In this document: one piece after another, positions 31,987 through 57,645 of the stretch
Layout: each line of letters opens with the position of its first letter
How positions within the stretch are numbered: the first letter of the stretch is position 1
Origin: Sphingomonas yantingensis
Lineage (GTDB): Bacteria > Pseudomonadota > Alphaproteobacteria > Sphingomonadales > Sphingomonadaceae
Length of the DNA: 64,000 nucleotides
Reading direction: 5' to 3'
NCBI RefSeq assembly: GCF_014199325.1
Contig: NZ_JACIJJ010000004.1
Coordinates: 310,001-374,000, forward strand
Position numbers and translations under genes: made by a program
The notes under the pieces: model-generated
The model's input: the letters and a program-made list of their open reading frames with translations, nothing else
What the model was told of the DNA's origin: nothing
Databases searched by the model: none

Positions 31987-32246
31987 GTCACCCCGGACTT
32001 GATCCGGGGTCCCGCTTCTTTCTTTCGCCGGAAGCAAGAAGGTGGTTCACGCAGAGACGCGGAGAGGTTGCGATCGCTGCCGGGTCAGCGGCTCCTATCC
32101 GCGGCACACCTGCTTTCAGGAGTTGGGTTGGGCTGCTACGCGGCCGCAGGCGCGATCTCTCCGCGCCTCCGCGCCTCCGCGTGAACCTACTTTCCTTTTG
32201 CGCGAGGAGAAGAAGAAGCGGGACCCCGGATCAAGTCCGGGGTAAC
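31987..32246. repeat. REP-like palindromic pair interrupted by another inverted-repeat element
   Basis: The recN-pyrF spacer is filled by one composite. The outer arms are GTCACCCCGGACTTGATCCG then GGGTCCCGCTTCTTTC at 31987-32022 and GAAGAAGCGGGACCCCGG ATCAAG TCCGGGGTAAC at 32210-32246. The two arms are normally only a few tens of bases apart in this family. Here they are separated by a 142-bp element with its own terminal inverted repeats, annotated separately. No gene is seen in the spacer. Confidence 0.85.
32045..32186. mobile_element. MITE-like element with inverted ends, nested in a REP pair
   Basis: The 142-bp stretch begins GTTCACGCAGAGACGCGGAG and ends with the reverse complement of GTTCACGCGGAGGCGCGGAG. 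Its right end contains a GCGCCTCC direct duplication. No ORF fits. The position, exactly inside a REP-type pair, and the terminal inverted repeats suggest a non-autonomous insertion. Target-site duplication is not clear by eye. Confidence 0.5.
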
Positions 32247-52058: not shown

Positions 52059-52123
52059 TATCGCGTTTGCGTTTGAGCGATCGGCGCGGTAAGGCGCACG
52101 GCATCCATCCAGACCCAGGAGTA

Positions 52124-53551
52124 ATGCCCGTGGCCACCGCCCCCGTCCTCGCGACGAAGGATTACGTCGTCGCCGATCTGTCGCTCGCCGATTTCGGCCG
52201 CGCCGAGATCAAGATCGCCGAGACCGAGATGCCGGGCCTGATGGCGCTGCGCGAGGAGTTCGGCGCGTCGCAGCCGCTCAAGGGCGCGCGCATCACCGGT
52301 TCGCTCCACATGACGATCCAGACCGCAGTGCTGATCGAGACGCTGACCGCGCTGGGCGCCGACGTTCGCTGGGCGACGTGCAACATCTTCTCGACGCAGG
52401 ACCACGCCGCCGCCGCGATCGCCGCGTCGGGCGTGCCCGTCTTCGCCGTGAAGGGCGAGACGCTGGCCGATTACTGGAACTATGTCGGCGACATCTTCAG
52501 CTGGGACCATGAGGTCGAGGGCCAGACCGCTAACATCATCCTCGACGACGGCGGCGACGCGACGATGTTCGCGCTGTGGGGCGCCAAGCTCGAAGCCGGG
52601 CACACCATGCCCGAGCCCGAGAACGAGGAAGAGGTCGAGATGCAGCGCGCGCTCAAGGCGTTCGTGGCGCGCAAGCCCGGCTACCTGACAGAGACGGTCA
52701 AGAACCTGAAGGGCGTGTCGGAAGAGACGACGACCGGCGTCCACCGCCTGTACGAGATCGCCAAGAAGGGCGAGCTTCCGTTCCCCGCGATCAACGTCAA
52801 CGACAGCGTCACCAAGTCGAAGTTCGACAACCTCTATGGCTGCAAAGAATCGCTGGTCGACGCGATCCGCCGCGCCACCGACGTGATGCTGGCGGGCAAG
52901 GTCGCGGTCGTCGCCGGCTTCGGCGACGTAGGTAAGGGCTCGGCCCAGTCGCTCCGCAACGGCGGCGCGCGCGTGATGGTGACCGAAGTCGATCCCATCT
53001 GCGCGCTCCAGGCCGCGATGGAAGGGTTCGAGGTCGTAACGATGGAGGAAGCGGTGACCCGCGCCGACATCTTCGTCACCGCCACCGGCAACGCCGACGT
53101 CATTACCGCCGATCACATGAAGGCGATGCGCCCCATGTCGATCGTCTGCAACATCGGCCACTTCGACAGCGAGATCCAGATCGCCGCTTTGTCGAACTAC
53201 AAGTGGACCGAAGTGAAGCCGGGCACCGACCTGGTCGAGTTCCCCGACGGCAAGCAGATCATCGTCCTTGCCAAGGGTCGTCTCGTGAACCTCGGCTGCG
53301 CGACCGGCCACCCGTCGTTCGTCATGTCGGCCAGCTTCACCAACCAGACGCTCGCGCAGATCGAGCTCTGGACCGACGGCGACAAGTACGAGAACAAGGT
53401 CTACGTCCTGCCCAAGCACCTCGACGAAAAGGTCGCGGCGCTGCACCTCGAGAAGCTGGGCGTGAAGCTGTCGAAGCTGTCCGACAAGCAGGCCGGCTAT
53501 ATCGGCGTGCCGGTCGAGGGGCCGTTCAAGCCGGACCACTACCGCTATTGA
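52124..53551 (+). CDS. ahcY: Adenosylhomocysteinase
   Basis: The 475-residue NAD-dependent enzyme hydrolyses S-adenosylhomocysteine to adenosine and homocysteine and so keeps methylation going. It has [34 protein letters not shown], the NAD fold [39 protein letters not shown] and the conserved end [10 protein letters not shown]. The insert of about 40 residues typical of proteobacterial forms is present ([18 protein letters not shown] region). AGGAG lies 4 bases before the ATG. Confidence 0.97.
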
Positions 53552-53587
53552 CGCGAGCGGGCGGGGCTACCCGTCCCCGTTCGAGAG

Positions 53588-53621
53588 GGGCGCGGCTTCC
53601 GCTCGGAGGTCGCGCCCTTTT
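53588..53621 (+). terminator. Rho-independent terminator of ahcY
   Basis: A 7-bp perfect outer stem (GGGCGCG with CGCGCCC, plus weaker inner pairs) is followed by four T residues, 37 bp after the ahcY stop. Confidence 0.8.
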
Positions 53622-53635
53622 CGTTGCGCGCGTGA

Positions 53636-53739
53636 GAGAAGAAGCGGGACCCCGGATCAAGTCCGGGGTGACATGGTTGGGTAGGTGTTGCCCTAGCCAA
53701 AATCGTCATCCCGGGCTTGACCCGGGATCCCGCTTCTTC
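53636..53739. repeat. REP-like palindromic pair on the right-hand side of ahcY (unit A)
   Basis: Arm 1 (53636-53672) reads GAGAAGAAGCGGGACCCCGG ATCAAG TCCGGGGTGAC. Arm 2 (53705-53739) reads GTCATCCCGGG CTTGA CCCGGGATCCCGCTTCTTC. They enclose a 32-base spacer containing TGGTTGGG and CCCTAGCCAAAATC. The ends facing outward are GAAGAAGCGGG. The stop of the GIY-YIG gene is 6 bases from arm 2. Unit B at 54041 has the same structure. Confidence 0.9.
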
Positions 53740-53744
53740 CTTCT

Positions 53745-54035
53745 TCACCCAAGCGTTTCGAACAGGTCCCGCCACTCGCGATTGTCGCGCTCGATCAGCT
53801 CGAACTTCCAATCGCGCTGCCAGCGCTTGATCCGCTTCTCGTGCGCAATGGCGTCAAGCGTCGTTTCAGTACGCTCCGCCCAGACCAACCGGTCGAGGCC
53901 GTAGCGACGACAGAAGTCTGACCCTTCGCCGGCCCGATGTTGCGCGACGCGAGCCGCTACGTCCGCCGTCACCCCGACGTACATCGTGCCGCGGTAGCGA
54001 TCCGCCATGATGTAGACCCAGCCGCCCGTCGCCAT
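53745..54035 (-). CDS. Single-domain GIY-YIG nuclease flanked by REP-like units
   Basis: The 96-residue protein is a bare GIY-YIG domain of the YhbQ/UPF0213 type: WVYIMADRYRGTMYVGVT (the Y..G.MYVG version of GIY-YIG, about residues 6-23), catalytic Arg in ARVAQHRAGEGS, the Lys/Glu helix in AIAHEKRIKRWQRDWKFELI with its Glu, and an aromatic end NREWRDLF. It should nick or cut DNA with Mg2+. Units A and B of the repeat lie immediately on either side and in the same orientation. ATG 54035 fits the domain start; upstream codons in frame belong to the repeat. A role in repeat maintenance or mobility is inference. Confidence 0.9.
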   Translation of the reverse strand: MATGGWVYIMADRYRGTMYVGVTADVAARVAQHRAGEGSDFCRRYGLDRLVWAERTETTLDAIAHEKRIKRWQRDWKFELIERDNREWRDLFETLG

Positions 54036-54040
54036 TGGCG

Positions 54041-54150
54041 GAAGAAGAAAGAAGCGGGATCCCGGGTCAAGCCCGGGATGACGTGACTGGTTAGGGACGG
54101 TCCCCAACAAAATCCGTCACCCCGGACTTGATGCGGGGTCCCGCTTCTTC
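54041..54150. repeat. REP-like palindromic pair on the left-hand side of mfd (unit B)
   Basis: Arm 1 (54050-54082) reads AGAAGCGGGATCCCGGG TCAAG CCCGGGATGAC; arm 2 (54116-54150) reads GTCACCCCGGACTTGATGCG then GGGTCCCGCTTCTTC. They enclose a spacer with TGGTTAGGGACGGTCCCC then AACAAAATCC. Spacer and arms align with unit A at 53636, so the two units are direct copies around the GIY-YIG gene. Confidence 0.9.
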
Positions 54151-54165: not shown

Positions 54166-57100
54166 TCAACCCGCCGCCTTCGCCAACCCCCGACTGATCT
54201 GCAGCGCCGCGTTCAAGCGCGCCTTGGGCGTCGCGAAGGGGCGGTTGACGACCAGCTTCATGTCCGGGCGCAGCTTCGCCGTTCCCTCCAGCCGGCCGAC
54301 ATAGGCCATCAGCCCATCGACATTGGGGAAATGATCCTTGGCGAAGCTGACCAGCGCGCCCTTCGGTCCCACGTCGAGCTTGGCGATGCACGCGGTCTTG
54401 GCATTGAGCTTGGCTTCCATCAGCACCAGCAGGTTCTCGGTCGCCTCGGGCAGCTTGCCAAAGCGGTCGATGAGTTCGGCGGCGAACGCCTCGATCCCGC
54501 GACGGTCCTCGACGTCGTTGAGCCGGCGATAGAGACCCATGCGCAGGTCGAGGTCGGGGATGAACTCCTCGGGCAGCATGATCGGCGCATCGACGGTGAT
54601 CTGGGGCGAGAAGTCGCCGGGCTTCAGGTCGCCGTCGTCGGCGGTGCGCCCTGACTTGGCCTCGAGGATCGCTTCCTCCAGCATCGCCTGGTAGAGTTCG
54701 TAGCCGACCTCCTTGATATGCCCCGACTGCTCGTCGCCGAGCAGGTTGCCCGCACCGCGAATGTCGAGGTCGTGGCTGGCGAGTTGGAAGCCCGCCCCCA
54801 GCGAATCGAGGTCGGACAGCACCTTCAGCCTCTTGTCCGCCGCCTCGGTCATCATCCGCTCGGGCGGGGTCGTCAGGTACGCATAGGCGCGCGTCTTGGC
54901 CCGCCCGACGCGGCCGCGAAGCTGATAGAGCTGGGCGAGGCCGAACTTGTCCGCGCGATTGACGATCATCGTGTTGGCGCTCGGAATATCGAGGCCGCTT
55001 TCGACGATGGTGGTGGAGATCAGCACCTCGAACTTCTTGTCGTAGAAGGCGGACATCCGCTCCTCGACCTCGCTTGCCGCCATCTGGCCGTGTGCGACGA
55101 CGTAGCGAACCTCGGGCACTTCGTTTCTGAGGAACTCCTCGATCTCGGGAAGGTCGGCGATGCGCGGGGTGACGAAATAGCTCTGACCGCCGCGATAATG
55201 CTCGCGCAGCAACGCCTCGCGCAGCACGACCGGGTCCCATGGCATGACGTAAGTGCGCACGGCGAGGCGATCGACCGGCGGCGTCTGGATCACCGACAGC
55301 TCGCGCAGCCCCGACATCGCCATCTGAAGCGTGCGCGGGATCGGCGTGGCGGTGAGGGTGAGGACGTGGACGTCGGCCTTCAGCGCCTTCAGCCGCTCCT
55401 TGTGCGTGACGCCGAACCGCTGTTCCTCGTCGACGATGACGAGGCCGAGGCGCTTGAAGTCGAGGCCCTTGGCGAGCAGCGCGTGGGTGCCGATCACCAC
55501 GTCGATCGTCCCGTCCGCCAGCCCTTCCTTCACCTTCTTGATCTCGGGCGCGGGGACGAGGCGGCTGATGCGGCCGACATTGATCGGGAACCCCTCGAAC
55601 CGGGCGGAGAAGTTGGTGTAGTGCTGGCGCGCGAGCAGCGTGGTGGGGCAGATGACCGCGACCTGCATCCCCGCCATCGCCCCGACGAACGCGGCGCGCA
55701 GTGCCACCTCGGTCTTGCCGAAGCCCACGTCACCGACCACCAGCCGGTCCATCGGCTTGCCGGAGGACAGGTCGCCGAGCACGTCGTCGATCGCGCGGTC
55801 CTGATCCTCGGTCTCCTCGTAAGGGAAGCGGTCGAGGAAGGCGGGATAGCCGCCGGCATCGGGTTCGGCGACCTGGCCGGGGCGCAGCGCGCGCTTGGCG
55901 GCGGTCTTGATGAGCTCGCCCGCGATCTCGCGGATGCGTTCCTTCATCGCCGCCTTGCGCCGCTGCCAGCCCTCACCGCCGAGGCGGTCGAGGCTCGCGC
56001 CCTCTTCGCTCGAACCGTAGCGGCTCAGGACCTCGAGATTCTCGACCGGGACGTAGAGCTTGTCGCCGCCGGCATAGGTGAGCGCGACGCAGTCGTGCGG
56101 CGCCTTCTGTACCGGGATCTGCGTCAGCCCCTCGTACCGGCCGATGCCGTGATCGACATGGACGACGAGGTCGCCGGGCGACAGCGTGGCGAGTTCGGCG
56201 AGGAAGGCGTCGGTCGATTTCTTGCGCTTCTTGCGCCGGACCAGCCGGTCGCCGAGCATGTCCTGCTCGGTCAGCACCGCGATCCCAGGCGCGGTGAAGC
56301 CGTGGTCCAGGGGCAGGACGATCAGGCTGACGCCGAAGCTCTTGGTCGTATCCGCCTTGCCCAGCGCGTCCTGCCACGTGTCGGCGAGCACGGCGCCCTT
56401 CAGCCCGTGATCGACGAGCAGGCCCATCAACCGCTCGCGCGCGCCTGCCGAATAGCTGGCGAGGATCGGCTTGCGGCCGTCCTTGCGCAGCTTTTCGACA
56501 TGGCTTGCGACGGCTTCGTACACGTTGGCCTGCGCGGTGCGTTCGGGCGTGAAGTCGCGCGGGCCGTCGACGCCGAAGTCGAGGACACGGGCGCTTTCCG
56601 GCTCGTGGAACGCGGTGACGAGGTGCGCGGGGGCTTCCTCGACCCGCTTCGCCCATTCGTCGGCGAGTAGGTAGAGCTGGTCCTGGCCGAGCGGGCGATA
56701 GCTGCCCGGATCGCTCGACTGCGCGCGGACGCGGTTCGCCTGATAGTCGGCGATCCCCTCGAACCGCGCCTCCGCCGCCGAGACGGCATTGGCGTCGCGG
56801 ACGATGACGGCATCAGCGGGCAAATGGTCGAACAGCGTCTCCAGCCGCTCCTCGAACAAGGGCAACCAATGCTCCATGCCGGCAAGGCGGCGGCCGTCGC
56901 TGATTGCTTGATAGAGCGGGTCGCCCGTCGCGGTCGCGCCGAACCGCTCACGGTATCGGGTGCGGAAGCGTCTGATCGTGTCCTCGTCGAGCAGCGCTTC
57001 GGACGCGGGCAGGAGGGTGAAGCCGTCGATCCGGCCGGTGGTGCGCTGGTCGGCGGGATCGAACGTCCGCACGCTCTCGATCTCGTCGCCGAAGAAGTCG

Positions 57101-57645
57101 AGGCGCAGCGCCTGTTCCGCGCCGGAGGGGTAGAGGTCGGCCAGCCCGCCGCGAATCGCGAACTCGCCCGCGTCGTGGACGGTATCGGTGCGGACATAGC
57201 CGTTGCCCGCGAGCAGCGCCGCTAGCTTGTCGAGCGAGATGCGCTCGCCGGGGGCAAGACGGGCGACGAGCTGGCGGACGCGGAAGCGGGTCAGGACGCG
57301 CTGCGTCGCGGCATTGACCGTCGTCAGGAACAGGCGCGGGCGCGTGGCCTTCTGCTGAAGCGTGTGGAGCGCCGCCAGCCGTTCCGACATGACGCGCAGC
57401 GAGGGGCTGGCGCGGTCGTAGGGAAGGCAGTCCCAGGCGGGGAACTGCACCACCTCGATCTCCGGCGCGAAATAGGGCGCGGTTGCGGCGATCGCGCGCA
57501 TCTCGTTGTCGTCGGTGGCGACGAACACCGCGCCGCCCGATGCCGCGCGCGTGAGGTCGGCGAGCAGCGAGGGCAGGAAGCCGCTCGGCACGCCCGCGAG
57601 GGTGAGCGGGGCCTTGGCGGTGAGGATCTTAGAGAGGTCGGGCAT
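54166..57645 (-). CDS. mfd: Transcription-repair coupling factor Mfd
   Basis: The 1159-residue translocase removes RNA polymerase stalled at DNA lesions and recruits UvrA. UvrB-like domains are at the N-terminus (about 1-350), the RNA-polymerase-interacting domain is at about 490-560 (GDLVVHVDHGIGRYEGL), and the RecG-like motor has GDVGFGKTEVALRAAF (about 645) and VDEEQRFGVTHKER. The TRG motif and C-terminal D7 domain follow. Length is normal. Confidence 0.97.
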   Translation of the reverse strand: MPDLSKILTAKAPLTLAGVPSGFLPSLLADLTRAASGGAVFVATDDNEMRAIAATAPYFAPEIEVVQFPAWDCLPYDRASPSLRVMSERLAALHTLQQKATRPRLFLTTVNAATQRVLTRFRVRQLVARLAPGERISLDKLAALLAGNGYVRTDTVHDAGEFAIRGGLADLYPSGAEQALRLDFFGDEIESVRTFDPADQRTTGRIDGFTLLPASEALLDEDTIRRFRTRYRERFGATATGDPLYQAISDGRRLAGMEHWLPLFEERLETLFDHLPADAVIVRDANAVSAAEARFEGIADYQANRVRAQSSDPGSYRPLGQDQLYLLADEWAKRVEEAPAHLVTAFHEPESARVLDFGVDGPRDFTPERTAQANVYEAVASHVEKLRKDGRKPILASYSAGARERLMGLLVDHGLKGAVLADTWQDALGKADTTKSFGVSLIVLPLDHGFTAPGIAVLTEQDMLGDRLVRRKKRKKSTDAFLAELATLSPGDLVVHVDHGIGRYEGLTQIPVQKAPHDCVALTYAGGDKLYVPVENLEVLSRYGSSEEGASLDRLGGEGWQRRKAAMKERIREIAGELIKTAAKRALRPGQVAEPDAGGYPAFLDRFPYEETEDQDRAIDDVLGDLSSGKPMDRLVVGDVGFGKTEVALRAAFVGAMAGMQVAVICPTTLLARQHYTNFSARFEGFPINVGRISRLVPAPEIKKVKEGLADGTIDVVIGTHALLAKGLDFKRLGLVIVDEEQRFGVTHKERLKALKADVHVLTLTATPIPRTLQMAMSGLRELSVIQTPPVDRLAVRTYVMPWDPVVLREALLREHYRGGQSYFVTPRIADLPEIEEFLRNEVPEVRYVVAHGQMAASEVEERMSAFYDKKFEVLISTTIVESGLDIPSANTMIVNRADKFGLAQLYQLRGRVGRAKTRAYAYLTTPPERMMTEAADKRLKVLSDLDSLGAGFQLASHDLDIRGAGNLLGDEQSGHIKEVGYELYQAMLEEAILEAKSGRTADDGDLKPGDFSPQITVDAPIMLPEEFIPDLDLRMGLYRRLNDVEDRRGIEAFAAELIDRFGKLPEATENLLVLMEAKLNAKTACIAKLDVGPKGALVSFAKDHFPNVDGLMAYVGRLEGTAKLRPDMKLVVNRPFATPKARLNAALQISRGLAKAAG

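Follow-up and report, generated by a model that had tools for sequence, protein, structure and literature searches.

A GIY-YIG nuclease gene enclosed by two REP dimers

The window, a stretch of 64,000 nucleotides from Sphingomonas yantingensis, contains at positions 53636-54150 a gene for a 96-aa GIY-YIG protein enclosed by two REP dimers, units A and B, each composed of two 31-nt REPs arranged head to head (Table 1). The initial annotation had described both units as inverted pairs with similar spacers that stop within a few bases of the gene, and our measurements agree: the arms of unit A span 48 nt inside 53638-53739 with 81% complementarity, those of unit B span 50 nt inside 54049-54149 with 78%, the spacers of 32 and 33 nt are similar in sequence, and the gap between the gene and the nearest REP is 12 nt at the stop end and 16 nt at the ATG end. 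Its wording of two direct copies holds for the units as wholes but is incomplete, as the inner REPs of A and B, matching at all 31 of 31 positions, also form an inverted pair around the nuclease gene with their tails towards it. It is this inner inverted pair that recurs elsewhere.

Table 1. Features of the REP-enclosed nuclease locus, in positions of the window.
Feature	Position	Strand	Remarks
CGTC-type REP, unit A outer copy	53642..53672	-	head to spacer, tail outward; preceded by T, not C
32-nt spacer, head-to-head dimer A	53673..53704	.	
CGTC-type REP, unit A inner copy	53705..53735	+	tail to gene; identical to unit B inner copy
96-aa single-domain GIY-YIG nuclease gene	53748..54035	-	PF01541, catalytic residues kept
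CGTC-type REP, unit B inner copy	54052..54082	-	tail to gene
33-nt spacer, head-to-head dimer B	54083..54115	.	resembles dimer A spacer
CGTC-type REP, unit B outer copy	54116..54146	+	

Folded singly as single-stranded DNA, the two REPs of unit A each give an 8-bp stem and a 5-nt loop (-9.5 and -9.3 kcal/mol), and the whole units also fold, unit A as a hairpin of -39 kcal/mol (z -10.2) and unit B at -35.2 kcal/mol (z -7.4). A C precedes three of the four REPs and a T the remaining one. An Rfam scan of the window returned nothing at gathering score. The neighbouring ORFs, 52067-53551 and 54166-57645 (-), are presumably ahcY and mfd, as recognised by eye. Longer minus-strand ORFs at 53745-54110 and 53545-53811 run across the REPs and yield 'HPGLDPGSRFF' peptides; gene starts in databases that carry such REP-derived peptides are probably annotation artefacts.

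REPs across the genome

The 31-nt consensus, roughly GTCAYCCCGGNNTTGANNCGGGRTCCCGCTT, occurs 129 times at up to three mismatches in the 3.56-Mb genome of the window (G000), and the reversed pattern used as a control does not occur. At this density, about two genes per million would be expected to have REPs no more than 40 nt away on each side. Variants of the stem are compensated, which would be expected if the hairpin is important: A/T, C/G or G/C stands beside the CTTGA loop, and the outer end has T/A or C/G. The tail in this genome is TCCCGCTT, and ATCCA-like tails were seen in more distant loci. Among 40 pairs picked by hand from the listed places, the tail-to-tail arrangement accounts for 26 and the head-to-head one for 14; for one of the 40 (L143) the scan detected a single partner only. 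No remnant of a nuclease gene was found in the genome's own tail-to-tail dimers with spacers of at least 25 nt.

Single REPs and dimers also occur at many further positions of this genome, as would be the case if the REPs were ordinary intergenic ones, serving as terminators or mRNA stabilisers and lying beside the nuclease gene by chance or at an insertion-tolerant spot. We consider that explanation scarcely credible in view of the enrichment around homologous genes, the matching of types and the copies of the unit at different sites described below.

Other repeats were noticed along the way. A tail-to-tail REP pair at 31987-32246 of the window surrounds 198 nt with another inverted repeat, rich in CGCGGAG and CTCCGCG, and a pair at L149 (G000:C4:405985-406225) likewise surrounds 179 nt with another inverted repeat, so that a second repeat family seems to be nested inside the REP pair at both places. 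A second CGTC-type repeat, GTCATCCCAGCGAARGCTGGGATC, occurs at eight places in the genome, beside neither of its two nuclease homologues.

The enzyme retains the GIY-YIG core

The 96-aa protein matches PF01541 with an E value of 2.6e-11 in a profile search. Conserved Tyr, Arg and Glu residues have established roles in the GIY-YIG superfamily, and all three are present in the domain. Of 229 homologues, 213 were aligned, 16 being left out for a stop or an odd length; in this alignment Y8 (98%), Y19 (99%), G21 (100%), R29 (98%), H33, E66 (100%), K70, K77, N85 and W88 are conserved at 98-100%. The predicted structure has a mean pLDDT of 95.4, and a Foldseek search with the model placed 1zg2 (UPF0213 BH0048; E 1.1e-3) first, followed by Slx1 chains. 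VIA-align gave Z 7.3 and rmsd 3.0 over 92 residues to 6sei_C and Z 5.8 to UvrC 1ycz, values that are middling by themselves; its ranks 1-17 are all Slx1, HIGLE, UPF0213, UvrC or I-TevI, with unrelated rows beginning at Z 3.8, and this list supports a GIY-YIG fold for the predicted model.

In the tree, the window nuclease, the Neisseria gonorrhoeae homologue and other members fall into one 137-row clade (100/99), in a tree of few columns and many open forks. YhbQ and a Salinivibrio relative lie outside it, YhbQ as a long branch whose placing is less sure. Phage proteins yielded 14 records at E up to 0.01, with a top identity of 36%, and 11 of them cover 80% of the query. Comparison of the window gene with two relatives gave dN 0.158 at dS 1.2-1.4. 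Between older copies of the gene NG86 dN/dS is low (L046/L058, dN 0.029 and dS 0.382), and between recent copies it is higher, reaching about 1 (L185/L187, 0.029 over 0.030).

Inverted REP pairs bracket homologous nuclease genes

We assembled the best 80 of 132 named Sphingomonadales loci from a protein-only search and added the two homologues of G000. In this set of 82 (best 80 of 132 plus two), REPs within 150 nt stood on both sides of the gene in 66 loci, upstream only in five, downstream only in five and on neither side in six; 63 of the 66 have heads outward and tails to the gene. The remaining sequence of the same 82 loci held 34 REPs in 695,617 bp. All six loci scored as having no REP (L057, L060, L065, L076, L081 and L082) carry a variant REP on both sides. 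In a motif-free comparison of the same set, 78 of 82 loci had an inverted flank match above the 99th percentile of 409 control ORFs, and 21 of 82 had a direct, non-inverted match above it; the control is imperfect, in that an ORF at L054 (score 101) outscores all but two nuclease loci. Thus, the enrichment of repeats around GIY-YIG homologues relative to other genes, on which the initial annotation had let its proposal depend, was found. Matching arms were absent from four of 81 Sphingomonadales loci. The second homologue of G000 (L002) is unbracketed, with one REP on one side. In one of the named relatives (best 80 of 132), L074, the unit likewise lies next to mfd.

The association of repeat and nuclease extends beyond sphingomonads. 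A homologue is present in 215 of 398 genomes of the phylum, and matching inverted arms flank 80 of 109 surveyed homologues compared with 8 of 208 control placements. With stricter hairpin scanning, repeats stood on both sides of 40 of 107 phylum loci versus none of 103 controls, with one of 18 controls positive in the plasmid set. Orientation is looser outside Sphingomonadales, as 26 of the 40 nearest pairs in the phylum survey have heads outward. The 29 unbracketed homologues among the 109 do not cluster on the tree (29 changes versus 29.9 with shuffled labels) and would therefore seem to be sporadic losses or cases whose repeats escaped the scan.

From a plasmid collection, 36 matches were found and 18 fetched; 14 of the 18 loci have matching arms, including those from Azospirillum, Sinorhizobium, Rhizobium, Shinella, Planktothrix and Spirosoma, and the four below the arm-match threshold come from Photobacterium, Salinivibrio, Rhizobium tumorigenes and Aeromonas. 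The Aeromonas locus (L123), scored as unbracketed, shows dRS3-like repeats further out. Furthermore, repeats with ATTCCC-N8-GGGAAT flank the N. gonorrhoeae homologue (45% identity across residues 7-92); PMC9778887 gives this as the dRS3 sequence, and Di Nocera et al. (PMC3733652) place dRS3 under CGTC-1.

Repeat type follows nuclease type

The repeats differ greatly from locus to locus, yet mostly agree on the two sides of one gene. In 27 genomes with at least two fetched copies, the arms match those of their own nuclease locus in 74 of 92 loci; those of paralogues more than 70% identical match in 73 of 78 ordered pairings, and those of more divergent paralogues in 24 of 178. With eight more genomes added (35 in all), the corresponding counts are 89 of 110, 90 of 98 and 25 of 182, the last including divergent paralogues that do have common arms, and none of 5000 permutations reached the observed sum of arm matches. 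Flank similarity also rises with nuclease identity (rank correlation, rho 0.79 over 140 pairs). G111 and G071 each contain two nuclease types with two REP types, and the second REP type of G071 occurs as an exact match only in the two copies around its nuclease. A match between the arms of a single locus could be explained by local inverted duplication alone; the agreement between related paralogues at different sites could not.

Copies of the unit at different sites, empty alleles and remnants

Near-identical paralogues have little in common beyond REP-gene-REP, about 0.4-0.5 kb, which indicates that the unit spreads. Five paralogues in G071 have 408-478 bp in common at 94.6-98% identity, and eight of their ten pairs lack any other match within 2 kb on either side, the other two having one or two further matches. 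The five copies in G139 have a common stretch of 401-605 bp at 87.6-94.4%, with one further match in six of ten pairs. Copies within two named genomes give the same picture: 355 bp in common for L046/L058, 354 bp for L047/L058 and 392-451 bp for L027/L037/L039, in each case apart from short REP matches. Identity between paralogues ends near the REPs, but in G071 it extends about 30 nt past them, and the comparison defined no target-site duplication. Sharing of both flanks sorts 81 loci into 64 sites, and the true number may be lower, given that in 63 pairs just one flank is common.

Many units (L185-L189, L191-L193 and L179-L182) have in common a motif resembling CATTGCGGACGTTCG some 20-30 nt beyond the REPs, in some cases on each side with the order inverted; it may be a favoured target or mark where the unit really ends.

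Strains without the unit, whose empty sites the initial annotation had proposed to read, were compared at several places. Seven plasmids have the unit in the Sphingobium fnrL region, four of which were read, one showing a frameshifted gene; at least four others lack it there (four read). Of the four empty alleles, one holds a double-headed palindrome identical to the expected product of joining the left and right REPs through their common stem half, one holds a changed form of it, and two have no REP. A similar double-headed palindrome occurs in Sinorhizobium C101 where strain Ak57 has the unit and a truncated second copy. Such alleles can be ordinary deletions through the short repeats in the stems. 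In Azospirillum lipoferum 4B (L119), a unit with REP dimers lies between sufB and sufC and is absent from four aligned relatives, the surrounding bases being too diverged for a clean junction. At the window locus no empty site was readable among 23 genomes of the same genus, in which the 1.5 kb past ahcY held neither the nuclease nor mfd.

Within scanned loci mostly chosen for having the nuclease, we counted 102 tail-to-tail REP pairs 25-400 nt apart, of which 79 enclose the gene (69 scored as full, and 10 from the 12 scored as 'partial', which are full-length and diverged), two enclose truncated remnants (L079 and L187) and 21 have no gene. The remnants indicate that at least some gene-less dimers derive from the nuclease unit. 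A two-tailed REP was seen upstream of the gene in L020 and two-headed REPs in L232, L233 and L236, forms expected from exchange between inverted REPs through their stems.

REP number tracks close nucleases, with exceptions

We binned 249 genomes of the family by their nuclease match, counting a match as close at E below 1e-38; these genomes are related and not independent, so that p-values from the comparison are overstated. Where the nuclease is close (n=30), the median is nine REPs of the window type, with at least one in 29 of the 30 genomes. The median falls to one in genomes with a mid match (n=53) and to zero in those with a far match (n=96) or with no homologue found (n=70), where 11 of 70 have at least one REP. 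One exception, G212, has 232 REPs and a UvrC-like protein as its sole GIY-YIG match; G128 and G136, with five and six REPs, again have only a UvrC-like match. G212 may have lost the nuclease recently, its assembly may have a gap at repeats, or its REPs may do without a nuclease. Conversely, G146 has a close nuclease and no REP of the window type, and its arms look like another REP type.

A PF01797 profile search for RAYT found no match in G000, and RAYT was rejected as the driver for lack of the gene. If a RAYT or a different transposase did the moving of the REPs, the GIY-YIG gene would be a passenger caught between them, as might be imagined for the two of 19 REP-bearing genomes that do carry RAYT-family genes. 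In the other 17, G000 included, none was found; moreover, other genes at the same loci show no such bracketing (409 control ORFs), and REP type tracks nuclease type within genomes, so we judge the passenger explanation very improbable.

A proposed two-part unit of nuclease and cognate repeats

Collectively, bracketing, type matching, copies at multiple sites, present and empty alleles, low dN/dS in older copies and retained catalytic residues are observed, and they support a nuclease-repeat partnership in which the types are matched and which spreads as a unit. Counted against it are G212, with its 232 REPs and no such nuclease, and the 29 of 109 homologues that are unbracketed. From sequence, the nuclease is a candidate for the missing partner enzyme of the CGTC class of REPs. 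The reading we favour, and consider somewhat probable, is a two-part unit in which an Ssn-type site-specific nuclease is joined to its own CGTC REPs and its cutting drives their spread. Judging from the homology to a Neisseria protein and from reported work on Ssn, the likeliest activity would be site-specific nicking of single-stranded REPs. The nuclease would recognise and nick its cognate REP hairpin when this is single-stranded, as may happen after passage of a replication fork, in the course of repair or on DNA entering the cell; repair of the broken REP from another REP-bearing locus would copy REP-gene-REP to new places, and gene-less REP dimers would remain as deletion products and further sites.

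Binding, single-strand cleavage and the nuclease itself as the force behind the spread are what we infer here, and passive copying by homologous recombination or gene conversion could account for the copies instead. One such alternative would make the nuclease an Ssn-type gatekeeper, which cuts incoming or exposed single strands at REPs and shapes transformation and recombination, with copies spreading passively through recombination between repeats. It would fit with Neisseria SsnA, which reportedly acts on NTS repeats and modulates transformation, with the Neisseria homologue in the same clade and the dRS3-type repeats at its flanks, and with G212, a REP-rich genome without such a nuclease, which suggests that REPs persist without it. 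We regard it as rather unlikely, since a discrete unit of 0.4-0.5 kb at sites otherwise little alike would not readily arise from recombination between 31-nt repeats.

A broader form of the two-part reading, which we put forward tentatively and with more doubt than confidence, is that the GIY-YIG enzyme is the missing dedicated mobiliser of CGTC REPs throughout bacteria. At about 0.4 kb, REP-nuclease-REP would then be a minimal autonomous element, spreading through single-strand cuts in its own palindromes; scattered REPs and dimers, neisserial dRS3 included, would be its non-autonomous descendants. The initial annotation had suggested a GIY-YIG nuclease as a different mobiliser or maintenance enzyme in place of RAYT; the enrichment, the type match and the absence of RAYT from G000 bear out the replacement, and the mobilising role is still a presumed one. 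If true, this would be a new kind of transposition, with a GIY-YIG enzyme as the driver of its own element outside introns. The matching of nuclease and repeat types, locus by locus and within genomes, would provide a defined enzyme-substrate pair with many natural variants, and a sizeable collection of predicted single-strand cutters whose recognition sites can be read. It would thereby give concrete form to the question of what makes or maintains CGTC REPs, left open in PMC3733652.

Comparison with known systems

CGTC-tagged REPs form one of the two large super-families of REPs and, according to Di Nocera et al. 2013 (PMC3733652), 'apparently lack a dedicated transposase'; no associated transposase was found in that work, and the term 'GIY' does not occur in it. 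The window REPs resemble them in the unpaired head (CGTC, in one of the four here TGTC; the super-family has CGTC/TGTC), the 8-bp stem and 5-nt loop (8-9 bp and 4-5 nt in the super-family), the frequent inverted dimers and the mostly alphaproteobacterial hosts. They differ in the tail, TCCCGCTT here and CCA there, and in the tail-to-tail pairs, common in G000 and called rare in the same source; because most but not all CGTC tails fit CCA (PMC3733652), the TCCCGCTT tail alone is no bar to membership.

RAYT, a tyrosine transposase, is called single-copy and unable to move itself by Bertels and Rainey 2011 (PMC3116915). As in REPIN-RAYT systems described there, short inverted-pair palindromes lie beside an enzyme gene and the REP type is matched to the enzyme; here, by contrast, the gene is of the GIY-YIG type, the REPs are of the CGTC type and the units are multi-copy, and G000 has no REP-flanked Y1_Tnp gene. 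A search of open-licence literature by titles and abstract openings found no pairing of GIY-YIG genes with REPs as a mobile unit, and the term 'GIY' is absent from RepRanger 2025 (PMC12306157) and from PMC6006769.

UPF0213/YhbQ proteins (BH0048, structure 1zg2; E. coli YhbQ) are similar in fold and core motifs; YhbQ and the Salinivibrio relative differ in lying outside the 137-row clade, the Salinivibrio gene being unbracketed and yhbQ overlapping its neighbour yhbS.

Among the closest known systems are the Ssn nucleases, reportedly presented by Chenal et al. in Nat Commun in 2025 as a family of site-specific single-strand GIY-YIG nucleases that target genomic repeats. They are said to cleave in a sequence-specific manner, on single-stranded DNA only, and to have many copies of the cognate repeat in the genome, some near the gene. 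The N. gonorrhoeae homologue of our analysis is presumably SsnA, and NTS may be dRS3. The likeness lies in the small single-domain GIY-YIG protein, in the Neisseria homologue of the same clade with dRS3-sequence repeats at its flanks, and in the many cognate repeats, 129 REPs in G000 with four at the gene. In view of this reported work, the label of an undescribed system, for which the initial annotation had named the locus its best candidate, is too strong or unproven. The window unit has another repeat sequence and another host group; in addition, its gene lies inside an inverted pair of repeats that spreads as a unit, as far as genome comparison tells. The enzyme family and the repeat family are both known, and what was not found in the open-licence literature is their systematic pairing as a mobile unit, part of which the Ssn paper may already contain.
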